DNA of 64,000 nt, from assembly GCA_947853665.1 (NCBI GenBank), contig CANTXF010000010.1, positions 1 through 64,000 on the forward strand, given 5' to 3'. Each line of letters starts with the position of its first letter. Positions within the stretch are counted from its first letter, which is position 1. Both the position numbers and the translations under genes were made by a program. Source of the DNA: an uncultured Deferribacterales bacterium. GTDB taxonomy: Bacteria > Chrysiogenota > Deferribacteres > Deferribacterales > Mucispirillaceae. This document shows positions 44,719 to 49,267 of this stretch, piece after piece. Under the pieces are notes generated by a model that saw only the letters and a list, made by a program, of their open reading frames with translations, had not been told where the DNA came from and made no database searches.

Positions 44719-44889
44719 CTAACGCTTTACGGTATGCCCGTCGCAGCAGGACGGCGCGTCCGGCTTTTTCCCGCAGGAGCAGCCGCAACCGCAGCCGCCC
44801 CCTTTGCCGGATAACGTCTTATAAAATTTACGCCCTATTATAACCGCGGCCGCAGCCACGATAAGCAGGACGATAACCGTTTCAATCAT
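44719..44889 (-). CDS. FeoB-associated Cys-rich membrane protein (56 aa)
   Basis: A 56-residue protein read from the sequence. One N-terminal membrane helix (ETVIVLLIVAAAAVIIG), a basic KFYK turn, then a cysteine-rich GCGCGCSCG stretch and a tail with CC and H. Such small proteins typically follow feoB and belong to the FeoB-associated Cys-rich family, thought to aid iron delivery; the exact role is unknown. ATG 44889 has AGGAG before it and overlaps the feoB stop (ATGA), so it is coupled to feoB. Confidence 0.85.
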   Translation of the reverse strand: MIETVIVLLIVAAAAVIIGRKFYKTLSGKGGGCGCGCSCGKKPDAPSCCDGHTVKR

Positions 44890-47024
44890 AATTTAACTCC
44901 TATCTGAAGCAGAGTACCTGCCTGAAATACTATGAAAGTAAGTATGTAGGCGATAACCGTCATTCCGATAAGCTGGAAAAAGGCCCATTTGATAGAGCCG
45001 CTCTCCCGCCTGGTAATGGCGAAGGTAGCCATGCACGGAGCCGAAAGCAGACAGAAAAGCATTATACAGAAACCTATAAGAGGAGAGTAATTTTCCTCCA
45101 GCTTGGCTCTTAGCGTGTCGGACTCTTCGTCCGCCTCGCCTACCGAATACACTATGCCCATCTGTGCTACAAAAACTTCCTTGGCGGCAAAAGCGCCTAT
45201 GAGAGCCGTGCCTATTTTCCAGTCGAAGCCCAAAGGCTTGAGCGCAGGCTCTATAAACATGCCTACCCGGCCTGCTATACTGTTTTGCAGAGCTTGCTCG
45301 CTTTCCGCGTTATCTATGTCAATAATAAAATCATCTTTCTCTTCGGCAGGCATATTGCTGGCCTCTACGGCCTGCCGCTGGGATTCGAAGCCTGCCTTCA
45401 CCTCCTCCGAGGGGCGCGGAAACGTGGTCATAGCCCAAAGGACTATGGAAATACCCAGAATAATCGTACCGGCTTTTTTAAGATAGAGCCATCCCCTCTC
45501 CCACATATGGGTAAGCACGCCTTTGACGGTGGGCATCCTGTAAGGGGGAAGCTCCATAACGAAGGGCACCGATTCGCCTTTAAGTATGGTCGCGCCCAGA
45601 GCCTTGGCGCTTATAATGGCCACGACTATGCCTATAACGTATATAATCCAGAGCATAGGAGCGTTAAGCGACTGAGGGAAAAACGCCGGTATGATCAAAG
45701 CGTATATGGGAAGCCTGGCCCCGCAGCTCATCATTGGAGCCACAAGCATTGTAATAAGCCTGTCTCTGCGGTTTTCAAGGGTTCTTGTAGCCATGATTGC
45801 AGGAACGGAGCAGCCGAAACCTATAAGCAGAGGGATAAAGCTTTTTCCGTGAAGGCCTATCTTATGCATAAGCTTATCCATAATAAAAGCGACGCGGGCC
45901 ATGTAACCGGAATCCTCGAGAACCGCTATTGCTAAAAACAGCAGCAGAATATTCGGCAGGAACACTATAACACCGCCTACGCCGCCTATTATACCGTCCA
46001 CAAGCAGAGACCTGAGAAGGCTTTCCGAGCCTTCCGGCCAGAAACCGTCCACCACGCCTCCGAGCCAGCCGAAAAACTCCTCTATCCAGCCCATAAACGG
46101 GTCGCCTATGGTAAAAGTAAGCTGAAAAACAAGATACATAAGCCCCAGAAATATAGGTATGCCCAGAACCCTGTTGGCCACAACTGTATCTATACTGTCC
46201 GAAAGGGTATGCCTTACTTCTATGGTGGAACGCACGGCCTCCTGACATGCCCCGGAAATAAACCCGTACCTTGCTCCTGCGATAGCCGTTTCAGGTATTT
46301 CACCAGTCAGTGATTCTATCCTGTCGGAGCTTTTTTTAAGCTGGGCGTCAAGCTCCGGGGAAAGAAACTGGGATTTTATATCCTTATCGTCCTCAAGGAG
46401 CTTCAGCGCCGCCCACCGGGGGTCGTATCTGGTTTCGCCGGATTTTTCTATCATTCCGGCGATAATATCAAGCTCGCCGCTCACTTCCTTTCCGTAATCA
46501 ACCTGACCGTGTTTCTGCGGGGAGGATTCCATGGCCACGTCTATTACTTTATCCAGTATTTCGTTCATCCCCTGGTTTTTGCTGCCTACGGCCGTAACTA
46601 TGGGGACGCCGAAAAACTGCCTCAGCTTCTTCAAATCGAATTCAAGGCCCCTGGCTTTGGCCATATCGCTCATATTAAACACGAATACGAGAGGAACGTT
46701 CAGCTCCATAAGCTGAACCGCCAGATAAAGGTTACGCTCCAGGTTGGACGCGTCTATTATATCGACAACGACGTCGGGCTTATCGTCTATTATAAAGTTT
46801 CTGGCCACCACCTCTTCGGCGGAATACGCGGTCAGGCTGTATGTGCCCGGCAGATCGACCACCTGCATCTCCACGCCCATATATTTCAGGCTGCCTTCCT
46901 TGCGCTCGACGGTAACGCCGGGATAATTGCCCACGTGCTGCCTTGCGCCGGTAAGATTGTTGAATATGGTCGTCTTTCCCGAATTGGGGTTGCCCGCCAG
47001 AGCGACGACAAGTTTTTCTTTCAT
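44886..47024 (-). CDS. feoB: Ferrous iron transporter FeoB
   Basis: 712 residues. N-terminal cytoplasmic GTPase with G1 GNPNSGKTTIFNNLTG, DLPGTYSLTAYS (G3) and VFNMSD (G4), a helical GDI-like region to ~residue 270, then the membrane part with Gate motifs (GFGCSVPAIMATRTLENRRDRL) and the C-terminal gate. It imports Fe2+ across the inner membrane. Typical length for bacteria. FeoC is absent; the small Cys-rich gene follows. Confidence 0.97.
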   Translation of the reverse strand: MKEKLVVALAGNPNSGKTTIFNNLTGARQHVGNYPGVTVERKEGSLKYMGVEMQVVDLPGTYSLTAYSAEEVVARNFIIDDKPDVVVDIIDASNLERNLYLAVQLMELNVPLVFVFNMSDMAKARGLEFDLKKLRQFFGVPIVTAVGSKNQGMNEILDKVIDVAMESSPQKHGQVDYGKEVSGELDIIAGMIEKSGETRYDPRWAALKLLEDDKDIKSQFLSPELDAQLKKSSDRIESLTGEIPETAIAGARYGFISGACQEAVRSTIEVRHTLSDSIDTVVANRVLGIPIFLGLMYLVFQLTFTIGDPFMGWIEEFFGWLGGVVDGFWPEGSESLLRSLLVDGIIGGVGGVIVFLPNILLLFLAIAVLEDSGYMARVAFIMDKLMHKIGLHGKSFIPLLIGFGCSVPAIMATRTLENRRDRLITMLVAPMMSCGARLPIYALIIPAFFPQSLNAPMLWIIYVIGIVVAIISAKALGATILKGESVPFVMELPPYRMPTVKGVLTHMWERGWLYLKKAGTIILGISIVLWAMTTFPRPSEEVKAGFESQRQAVEASNMPAEEKDDFIIDIDNAESEQALQNSIAGRVGMFIEPALKPLGFDWKIGTALIGAFAAKEVFVAQMGIVYSVGEADEESDTLRAKLEENYSPLIGFCIMLFCLLSAPCMATFAITRRESGSIKWAFFQLIGMTVIAYILTFIVFQAGTLLQIGVKL

Positions 47025-47088: not shown

Positions 47089-47319
47089 TTATACCCTTTC
47101 GACCTCTATGCACGCGGCCTCGGACTTTCTTAAAGACAGATGATAACCTTTTATTTTAAGCTCCATCGGGTCGCCCAAAGGAGCGAACCTTTCCACCTCT
47201 ATAACGGAGCCGGGGGTAATGCCCATTTCCATTATACGCTTGTGAAGCTCGCCCTTAAAATTGGCTCTTATTACCCTGCAGCTTTCTCCGGGATTTATAT
47301 CCCTTAAAGTGATGCTCAT
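47089..47319 (-). CDS. feoA: FeoA domain protein
   Basis: 76 residues, SH3-like FeoA fold: RVIRANFKGELHKRIMEMGITPGSVIEVERFAPLGDPMELKIKGYHLSLRKSEA region visible across the length. It modulates FeoB. Strong GGAGAGGGAG ribosome site. First gene of the iron operon, with the Fur-like site upstream. Confidence 0.95.
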   Translation of the reverse strand: MSITLRDINPGESCRVIRANFKGELHKRIMEMGITPGSVIEVERFAPLGDPMELKIKGYHLSLRKSEAACIEVERV

Positions 47320-47370
47320 GTTTCTCCCTCTCCTCTCGAATATACCTCCGGAATCCCGGTATGCTAAAGG

Positions 47371-47395
47371 TATTACCGCCTGCGATATTTGTCAA
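47371..47395 (-). promoter_or_regulatory. feoAB promoter
   Basis: On the minus strand TTGACA (plus 47390-47395) is followed, after 17 bases, by TACCTT, about 50 bases before feoA. The -35 is consensus; the -10 is weak, as for an activated or repressed promoter. The Fur-type palindrome lies 7 bases upstream of the -35. Confidence 0.45.
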
Positions 47396-47402
47396 GAATT
47401 TT

Positions 47403-47419
47403 TTGAGAATTATTCTCAA
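47403..47419. promoter_or_regulatory. Fur-type operator upstream of feoAB
   Basis: TTGAGAATTATTCTCAA is a perfect 17-bp palindrome with the 7-1-7 core TGAGAAT-T-ATTCTCA, which matches the pattern of Fur boxes (TGATAAT-N-ATTATCA) with one substitution per half. Its position directly upstream of the feoAB promoter fits iron repression. Confidence 0.75.
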
Positions 47420-47459
47420 TAGTTTACATAATGTACAGTAAGGAGAACATACCCTACTT

Positions 47460-47587
47460 TAATCTGTGTAAGGGTATAGCCGCGGTTTAATATATACAGG
47501 AAGAAATATAAGTTAAAATATTTCGCAACTATACATTACCTGGATTAATAAAGTTATGGGGAATATTTATAATACGGCGGCTTGCTC
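47460..47587. repeat. Dispersed repeat, copy 2, with internal inverted pair
   Basis: 47519-47587 is the inverted counterpart of 1-70. In addition 47460-47484 (TAATCTGTGTAAGGGTATAG...) is an imperfect inverted match of 47524-47547, so this copy can fold into a stem of ~24 bp with a ~40-base loop. It is non-coding and lies between divergent feoA and mocR. Together with the structured segment next to it (47584-47680) it may be a longer extragenic repeat. Confidence 0.7.
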
Positions 47588-47680
47588 AGGCAATGAATAA
47601 TAAGACCGAAAGCGCTTGGCCAGGCACTCTCTTAATGGGGCAAAGCCTTCCGGGTTTGCCTTGCCTGAGCAGGTCTTATT
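47584..47680 (+). ncRNA. Candidate structured element with interleaved stems
   Basis: Four segments: A GCTCAGGCAA (47584-47593), B AATAAGACC (47599-47607), A' TTGCCTGAGC (47661-47670), B' GGTCTTATT (47672-47680). A pairs perfectly with A', B with B'; their order A-B-A'-B' allows a pseudoknot or two exclusive folds. A further hairpin GGCAAA/TTTGCC (47639-47660) is nested just before A'. No start/stop pattern supports a protein. Strand and expression are unknown. Confidence 0.4.
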
Positions 47681-47760
47681 ATGAATGTTTTTAACGCCTA
47701 AAGAGCATTATTATAACTATTTACCAACAACTATCCACGTTAGGGGATAGCCGCCGAATA

Positions 47761-47789
47761 TTTACTATGTATTGAAAACAGTGTATGAT
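47761..47789 (+). promoter_or_regulatory. Probable promoter of the MocR-like gene
   Basis: TTTACT (47761-47766), 17 bases, TATGAT (47784-47789), 29 bases before the ATG. It lies downstream of the structured element, which would therefore not be part of this transcript. Confidence 0.4.
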
Positions 47790-47818
47790 AAGGCGGAGAA
47801 TACGATAAGGAGGCGCAA

Positions 47819-49267
47819 ATGGCGGCAAAAACGTTTTTCGAGCGCGAAGAAGGCGTGCCTCTTTATATACTTGCAGCCAACGCCCTGCGGGCGGAAATAA
47901 AAAGCGGCGGAATAACCCCGGGAACTAAGCTTTCGCAGCGAAGGCTCTCCGAAAAGCTGTCCGTAAGCAAAAAGACCGTGTCAGATGCCTTAAGTATACT
48001 GGAAGCCGAAGGCCTTGTCATATCGAAGCCGAAATCCGGCACCTTCGTAAACGGCAACCTGTGGCTGCTGCTTATAAAAAAAGACTCCCCCGACTGGAGC
48101 AGGCTCGCCTCCGGCGGAGCGCAGATGGCCTCGCCGGACGGCATATATTCGATAATGAAAGATATAAGCTCCGACCCGGTAATACATATATCCGGCCCTA
48201 CAATATCCAACGATTTCAAATATTACAGGCCCATACGCAAGGCTCTTGAAAAGGTATCAAGGCGCCTTGAAAGCACTAACGACCTTAACAGCAAAAATAT
48301 AATGGGCCTGCCCTCCCTCCGGGAAACCGTAGCCGCCCACATGGAGCGCTGCGGCGTTTACTGCTCCCCTGAACAGATAATGATAACACAAGGCTCCACC
48401 GAATCTCTGGCGGCGGTGTTTCTTTCGTTTCTGCGCAGGGGAATGAGGCTGTACTGCGAAACGCCTTCAATGCTCAATTCCATGACGCTGGCCCAGACCC
48501 TGGGCGCCTTACTGGAAAAAATACCCATGGACGAAGAAGGCATATCGGCGGAAAAGCTTGCCAACGCCGTAAGAAAAGGGGGCGGAGGCATGCTTTACTG
48601 CAATCCCGTAAACCAGTATCCTACTGGCATATCCACAAGTAAACGCCGCAGAGACGCCATTATGACAATATGCGCTGGCAAAGGCATACCCGTGATAGAA
48701 AACGACATGCTGAGGGATTTTTATATAGAAAAGCCGAACCCGAAGCCCATGAAAGCGTTCGATAAAAACGGCTCGGTAATATATATCGGCTCCCTTATGG
48801 GCGCTCATCTGGGTATGAAAATAAGCTGGGTCATAGCGCCGGATTTTTTAATGAAGCGGATATGCGACGTTAAATGCCAGTTTGAGATAATAGCAAACAC
48901 AATCGCCCAGATGACGGCGGACGAGCTTTTGAAAAACGGCTGGTATTACGAATATATGGAGGAATACAGGCCCGTATTCGCGGAACGCATAAGGCTCTGC
49001 GGCCTGCTGTTCGAAAAATATTTTTCCGGCATCGCCACATGGGAGCAGGCGGATAACAGCTGTTACAGAAAAGTAAAATTCGCCGAGCCGGTAAATACGT
49101 TAAAGATTTATAAAAAACTTAAAAATATAGTCGCCCTGCCGGGGTATTTTTTCGACGGCGGAGATACGTCCCACTTTTTTATCAGCCCTCTGGCGGATAC
49201 TGCGAGAAACCTGGAAGAAGGCATCAAGGCTGTGGCCCAATGCGTGCGCTCCACATACGGCCTTTAA
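47819..49267 (+). CDS. GntR/MocR-type regulator lacking the PLP lysine
   Basis: 482 residues. Winged helix GntR domain (residues ~12-80, LSQRRLSEKLSVSKKTVSDALSILEAEG) joined to an aminotransferase fold I domain (~120-480) with QGSTESLAAV, CNPVNQYPTG and VIENDMLRDFY. In MocR proteins the PLP Schiff-base Lys sits in a GT-x-SK motif; here the equivalent segment is YIGSLMGAHLG (residues 322-332), with Gly at the Lys position, and the EDDY-like motif reads ENDM. PLP is therefore probably not bound covalently; an amino compound may be sensed instead. Strong AAGGAGG site. It is convergent with the dmsAB pair and divergent from feoAB; target genes not known, possibly the CTGGA-containing region at 52390-52561. 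Confidence 0.8.
   Translation: MAAKTFFEREEGVPLYILAANALRAEIKSGGITPGTKLSQRRLSEKLSVSKKTVSDALSILEAEGLVISKPKSGTFVNGNLWLLLIKKDSPDWSRLASGGAQMASPDGIYSIMKDISSDPVIHISGPTISNDFKYYRPIRKALEKVSRRLESTNDLNSKNIMGLPSLRETVAAHMERCGVYCSPEQIMITQGSTESLAAVFLSFLRRGMRLYCETPSMLNSMTLAQTLGALLEKIPMDEEGISAEKLANAVRKGGGGMLYCNPVNQYPTGISTSKRRRDAIMTICAGKGIPVIENDMLRDFYIEKPNPKPMKAFDKNGSVIYIGSLMGAHLGMKISWVIAPDFLMKRICDVKCQFEIIANTIAQMTADELLKNGWYYEYMEEYRPVFAERIRLCGLLFEKYFSGIATWEQADNSCYRKVKFAEPVNTLKIYKKLKNIVALPGYFFDGGDTSHFFISPLADTARNLEEGIKAVAQCVRSTYGL

Follow-up and report, generated by a model that had tools for sequence, protein, structure and literature searches.

Between feoA, which starts at 47319 on the minus strand, and a GntR-type gene with an aminotransferase domain, which begins at 47819, the 64,000-nt window (the whole stretch of DNA analysed here) carries two pairs of complementary arms in the interleaved order A-B-A'-B'. 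The same order, with a nested hairpin, occurs in H-type RNA pseudoknots and pseudoknotted ribozymes. The question that this locus raises is whether the stems are a small RNA, a switch or the core of a mobile repeat, all of which an earlier note on this DNA had proposed. We consider it highly probable that they form the core of a non-coding MITE in which B-B' lies in the palindrome, A is an inherited inverted copy of A', and the arms have undergone template switching. The features of the locus are collected in Table 1.

Table 1 Features in and around the element (positions in the window; strand as + or -).
Feature	Positions	Strand	Remarks
Relic of another copy	47455..47480	-	matches the left end of copy L055 over all 26 nt
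Left target-site duplication	47516..47523	.	aaatattt; 7/8 identical to the right one
MITE copy, 232 bp, non-coding	47524..47755	+	family with at least 113 core matches in its own genome
Left terminal inverted repeat	47524..47541	+	family sequence CGCAGCTATACCCTTACG
Left-arm AT block	47561..47574	+	most conserved part of the left arm; TATAAT, directed towards the core, in 38 of 46 copies
Arm A	47583..47593	+	TGCTCAGGCAA; family-wide; A-A' uninterrupted solely in the window copy among 68
Arm B, palindrome stem	47597..47607	+	ATAATAAGACC
Nested hairpin arm N	47618..47625	+	GGCCAGGC here, GGCAAGGC in most copies
Nested hairpin arm N'	47658..47665	+	GCCTTGCC; overlaps A'
Arm A'	47661..47671	+	TTGCCTGAGCA
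Arm B'	47672..47682	+	GGTCTTATTAT
Right-arm AT block	47708..47722	-	TATAAT on the minus strand, directed towards the core, in 34 of 46 copies
Right terminal inverted repeat	47738..47755	-	reverse complement GGCGGCTATCCCCTAACG
Right target-site duplication	47756..47763	.	gaatattt

The two perfect pairs, reported by the earlier note as 10 and 9 bases long at 47584-47680, were present and proved slightly longer, with 11/11 complementary bases each; A and B are separated by 3 nt and B and A' by 53 nt, and B' follows A' directly (0 nt). Their order was also borne out as better than chance. Among 2000 dinucleotide-preserving shuffles of 47300-47900, searched for perfect 11-bp inverted repeats with starts at most 120 nt apart, none contained an interleaved pair, such a repeat occurred in 43, and an interleaved pair relaxed to 9 bp occurred in 9. 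With the same limits (11 bp, starts at most 120 nt apart), A-B-A'-B' is the sole interleaved set across the 64-kb window. The hairpin described as nested between the stems was found as well, with the arms GGCAAGGC/GCCTTGCC in most copies; in the window copy it forms 7 of 8 pairs, and N' and A' have TTGCC in common, so that the nested hairpin competes with A-A'.

The stems had been placed beside a dispersed repeat. When 30 copies were aligned with their flanks and the ends were then placed, homology spanned 47524 to 47755, indicating that the interleaved stems are the centre of the repeat and not its neighbour. The terminal inverted repeats of the element are imperfect, and its insertion duplicated 8 bp of AT-rich target. 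Among the 46 of 78 elements of at least 60 bits with both ends placeable, the identity of the flanking 8-mers was 0.70 in cis versus 0.42 in trans, and 10 of the 46 had a perfect 8-bp duplication; the signal peaked at length 8 alone, the other lengths within 2-12 giving 0.37-0.51. No ORF of at least 60 aa (ATG, GTG or TTG start) overlaps the window copy. None of the 44 testable elements (at least 100 bits, with 300 bases of flank on both sides, the stretch of the 64-kb window itself omitted) lay inside a stop-to-stop frame of at least 150 codons, as compared with 518 of 782 random stretches from the same pieces. The inverted ends, the 8-bp duplication and the non-coding, intergenic, multi-copy character are the defining marks of a MITE, and the suggestion of a mobile-repeat core was thus correct.

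The family is large and, in the genomes searched, confined to this one. BLAST of its own genome with 47540-47780 returned at least 43 places including the window copy (best 40 of 136 candidates scored), the others being 67-87% identical; 29 of the 30 loci behind these places, all except the short match L028, make up alignment A1. In all, 97 elements were located. The core alignment (A2) comprises 68 of them, whose core match scores at least 25 bits and spans most of the core, and the full-length set comprises 46, with at least 150 bits, a length of at least about 215 nt and a core that is not inverted. A covariance model of the 68 cores gave at least 113 matches in the 2.43-Mb genome at E ≤ 0.01 (best 150 of 1261 candidates scored), 11 of which were weaker than 1e-5 on these rough E-values. 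The copies are scattered across the genome, and the core matches would amount to about 1% of it if all were full length. The core model with stricter filters had no match in 58 other genomes, 14 of them from the same family, and BLAST with another copy had none in 38 other genomes. Neither BLAST of phages and plasmids nor exact-pattern scans of viral contigs and named genomes produced a match, in collections from which the window's own record is possibly missing. Relatives of the regulator gene outside this genome reached 47% at best, too distant to show an empty site. Several contigs of the assembly start or end in element copies, and the start of the window's contig (1-75) falls inside another copy (70 bits). 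The feoA-regulator gap itself has apparently received more than one insertion, as it holds the 26-nt relic of another copy, a pattern picked after the sequence was read, for which shuffles gave an expectation of 0.

Presumably, the element was moved by a transposase acting in trans. The search for an autonomous partner covered the transposase families PF01609, PF12762 and PF01610, none of which had a match in the genome. The one IS256-type transposase gene (L150, G000:C16:253918-254964) was rejected as the mobiliser, since its 24-nt ends, GAGCCTGTTTTGAATTTTGTGTAA, are unrelated to those of the MITE. The right-end pattern with up to 3 mismatches had 65 matches, versus 6 for a control pattern. 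At 14 right-end loci viewed 270 bases inward, we found a full or partial copy in 13, including L060, where the right-end part stands alone beside a 125-aa frame unlike a transposase. The remaining locus (L076, G000:C24:4286-4342) is a core-less mini-derivative of about 50 bp, with the left end joined directly to the right end.

As far as our searches reach, the family is new but of an already known kind. The closest analogue, likened by description and without implying homology, is the Chunjie MITE of Geobacter uraniireducens (PMC10969869). In the parts of that report used here, Chunjie-1 measures 235 bp, and there are another 37 copies (178-235 bp) besides 57 partial ones; conserved terminal repeats, direct repeats and intergenic positions are described, as in our element, whereas inverted cores, which our element has, are not mentioned in those parts. 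ERIC/IRU and Correia/NEMIS are likewise small palindromic MITEs (about 100-200 bp) analogous to the element; the sections of PMC2229807 drawn on describe transcripts that form long stem-loops and, inside Correia elements, putative divergent promoters. There, ERIC and Correia have TA termini, whereas our element has CGC...GCC, an 8-bp duplication and an interleaved core. A survey recorded 92 stem-loop repeat families across 40 genomes (PMC2267715), so such families are common. The distinctive traits of the present family are the interleaved core and the inverted cores.

We then compared the stems across the copies. Standard pairs occupied 86.8% of the B-B' cells and 78.1% of the A-A' cells over the 68 cores, and sliding the partner by 1-3 columns reduced them to 24-50% for A-A' and to 26-49% for B plus N. 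B-B' is part of the long palindrome of the element, and the nested hairpin caps this palindrome. A repeats A' once more in inverted orientation at a displaced position, a trait inherited by the family, so that one strand can fold either as B-B' plus the nested hairpin or as A-A'. Both main subfamilies have an A that looks like the reverse complement of A'; in subfamily one, CTTGCTC..GGCAA in A pairs with TTGCCTGAGCAGG, and in subfamily two, CTTGTGgCGGCAA pairs with TTGCCGCGCAGG. In 43 of 66 copies the A-A' pairing outdid 95% of shuffles, which together with its presence in both main subfamilies points to an inherited inverted repeat rather than a one-off coincidence.

One could nevertheless suppose that A-A' in the window copy is pure coincidence and that B-B' alone belongs to the element. 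Among the 68, the window copy is indeed the only one in which at least 11 A-A' pairs follow each other without a break, and the TTGCC/GGCAA words recur within the element, so that partial matches are expected. This reading is unlikely, and we rejected it on the family-wide complementarity, which persisted in copies outside the alignment, as A-A' was still better than 95% of shuffles in 10 of 20 held-out copies. Four other copies attain 11 standard A-A' pairs with two extra bases bulged. On the poorly resolved tree, A of the window copy is two bases shorter than in its nearest relatives, making it the exact complement of A'.

Covariation analysis of homologous copies, which the earlier note had put forward as the check on the stems, gave a signal that did not last. 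In the first sample, the cis pairing of A-A' surpassed its trans pairing (8 of 2000 permutations as good), A-A' was coupled in cis by identity in 45 full copies (0 of 5000 permutations), and its covariation score was matched by 2 of 500 shuffles. Measured against the nearest relatives, the cis advantage had p values of 0.24, 0.056, 0.020 and 0.024 with 3, 5, 8 and 15 relatives, respectively. In a small hold-out of 20 core matches outside A2, found by a model built on B and N, the A-A' cis coupling was absent (cis -10.03, trans -10.14; 2989 of 5000 permutations as good). B-B' behaved similarly, with coupling in the first sample (1 of 2000 permutations; p 0.005-0.012 against near relatives) and none in 18 held-out copies (2083 of 5000). 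For the nested hairpin, coupling was missing from the first sample (240 of 2000) and weakly present in the hold-out (244 of 5000). We read the first-sample A-A' signal as mostly shared ancestry. Since it is weak against near relatives and absent in the hold-out, compensatory changes are not convincingly there. RNAalifold on 29 copies returned 22 pairs, one of them with both sides changed, in an arrangement that we took as spurious. With 2 of 65 inner branches starred, the core trees offered little resolution and left an independent-pairs test without power.

The core might instead be a structured RNA transcribed from an arm TATAAT, with a predicted start near 47580, and folding as a pseudoknot or as an A-A'/B-B' switch. 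The TATAAT words of both AT blocks, retained in most copies (Table 1), would be promoter-like sites; they are among the 9 such sites predicted in 47300-47900, where 1.9 are expected, although their -35 hexamers are poor. The majority fraction was 0.94 and 0.91 in the AT blocks, 0.94 in N' and 0.90 in B', as against 0.70 and 0.82 in the left and right terminal repeats, and this conserved core suggests that something in the middle of the element matters. The element folds as RNA at -67.1 kcal/mol, or at -66.5 with A-A' forced and -63.2 with B-B' forced, and the A and B folds of the inner part are nearly equal in energy (-35.2 and -35.3), whereas DNA parameters favour B-B' (-36.0 versus -32.2). 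On either strand, the fold is more stable than in shuffles (z -2.42 plus, -3.80 minus). The pairing of A-A' in 43 of 66 copies and its first-sample cis coupling also fit an RNA. By parsimony, pairing-preserving versus pairing-breaking transitions numbered 52:29 in A-A', 35:46 in B-B' and 25:17 in the nested hairpin, with 193:264 in the unpaired columns of the same count (rates per site 7.72 and 5.62); of these, the A-A' surplus lends slight support to the RNA reading.

Other results run against an RNA. In the predicted consensus palindrome, a structure without A-A', the G-U and A-C cells, which are not independent, numbered 98:107 in the outer part and 120:107 in the inner part, or 218 and 214 in total, a balance that speaks against selection acting on one strand's RNA. 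Besides the lost hold-out coupling and the p value of 0.24 at 3 relatives, a subfamily of 10 among the 68 copies carries ATATC in A and has lost the GGCAA half of A-A'. No Rfam family matched the window at its gathering score, and the single match below curated score in 47500-47800 (E 9.7) was at chance level; a known Rfam RNA was therefore rejected. The likeness to H-type pseudoknots and pseudoknotted ribozymes is limited accordingly: the core has no Rfam match, its covariation was not reproduced, and its two 11-bp helices have connections of 0 nt and 3 nt. Both helices at once look strained with such connections, making two alternative folds more plausible than a pseudoknot. The data fall short of showing that A-A' is maintained by evolution as an RNA pseudoknot or switch; an RNA-level function of the element is not indicated, and the small RNA or switch of the earlier note was not established. 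We judge the structured-RNA reading to be quite improbable.

It is scarcely credible that the stems act as an intrinsic terminator in the gap that separates feoA from the GntR-type gene. Two weak terminator-like matches lie inside the element, but no long T run follows a stem, the element is dispersed over the genome, and the two genes diverge from the element region, so that neither needs to end there. We accordingly rejected a plain terminator, which the earlier note had already called unlikely. The note was also right that the stems lie ahead of a regulator gene, yet the rest of the copies are dispersed genome-wide. Two observations concern the feo side of the locus. A perfect inverted repeat, TTGAGAAT-T-ATTCTCAA, lies upstream of feoA at 47403-47419 and resembles a Fur box. 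FeoB (44886-47024) matches deltaproteobacterial and acidobacterial MAGs at 71% identity and Mucispirillum at 63% (best 80 loci). The isoleucyl-tRNA synthetase has 72% identity to an uncultured Mucispirillum (L165), 73% to a genome of the same family and about 51% to a deltaproteobacterial genome; the Mucispirillum record L163, perhaps an incomplete assembly, gave paralogue-level matches only. By this synthetase, the host probably belongs among the relatives of Mucispirillum, in the order Deferribacterales. The unlike affinities of the two proteins make a horizontal transfer of FeoB possible.

In some elements, the core lies backwards. Among 74 orientable elements of the 97 located, the core was inverted relative to the ends in 12, in 3 of which the ends rest on less than 15 bits. 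Nine inverted-core elements had placeable ends, and 4 of these 9 carried perfect 8-bp duplications, indicating that their ends are intact; in the own genome (G000), these are C34:76758-77008, C25:4432-4688, C27:9345-9565 and C39:9758-9990. On the best tree, the inverted core required 9 changes (shuffled mean 11.3; 15 of 500 as low), at least 2 of them forced. In addition, the copy at C26:12079 has two terminal repeats that are almost the same in sequence and differ from the left end of the family, and this copy has no target duplication (0/8). Homogenisation in cis was significant for the AT block (3 of 5000 permutations as good) and not significant over the outer repeats as a whole (1631 of 5000).

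Judging from these patterns, DNA template switching between the arms during replication would be the most economical origin of the architecture and of its upkeep. Such switching would homogenise the arms, may have made A of the window copy the uninterrupted complement of A', and would invert the sequence between the arms, yielding the inverted cores of the 12 elements. The first-sample cis coupling of A-A' would be expected from functional pairing as well, and would to that extent count against the template-switch account. Template switching between short inverted repeats is described as yielding both homogenised arms and inverted spacers (PMC8604942), and it can mimic compensatory change (PMC8794818). 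The yeast products (PMC8604942) resemble our element in their homogenised arms and inverted spacers between short inverted repeats; the inverted spacers described there are a few bases long, whereas those of the element exceed 100 bp, and the mechanism is extrapolated to that extent. A narrow literature search found no description of inverted MITE cores in bacteria.

A bolder proposal is that the family is a transposable two-state folder, in which A-A'/B-B' flipping and core inversion matter for spread or for the tuning of neighbouring genes. The flips would occur in transcripts from promoters in the element's own arms or in single strands exposed at replication. If this were true, the family would be a mobile, invertible structural switch, but we hold it to be a long shot. 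On the reading preferred here, that of a template-switched MITE core, the locus illustrates that a pseudoknot-like layout in raw sequence can stem from a mobile palindrome, and that a family of mobile palindromes can pass naive covariation tests yet fail on held-out copies. The family constitutes a large natural series of one quasi-palindrome, and could lend itself to measuring, in a bacterium, how template switching homogenises arms and inverts large spacers.
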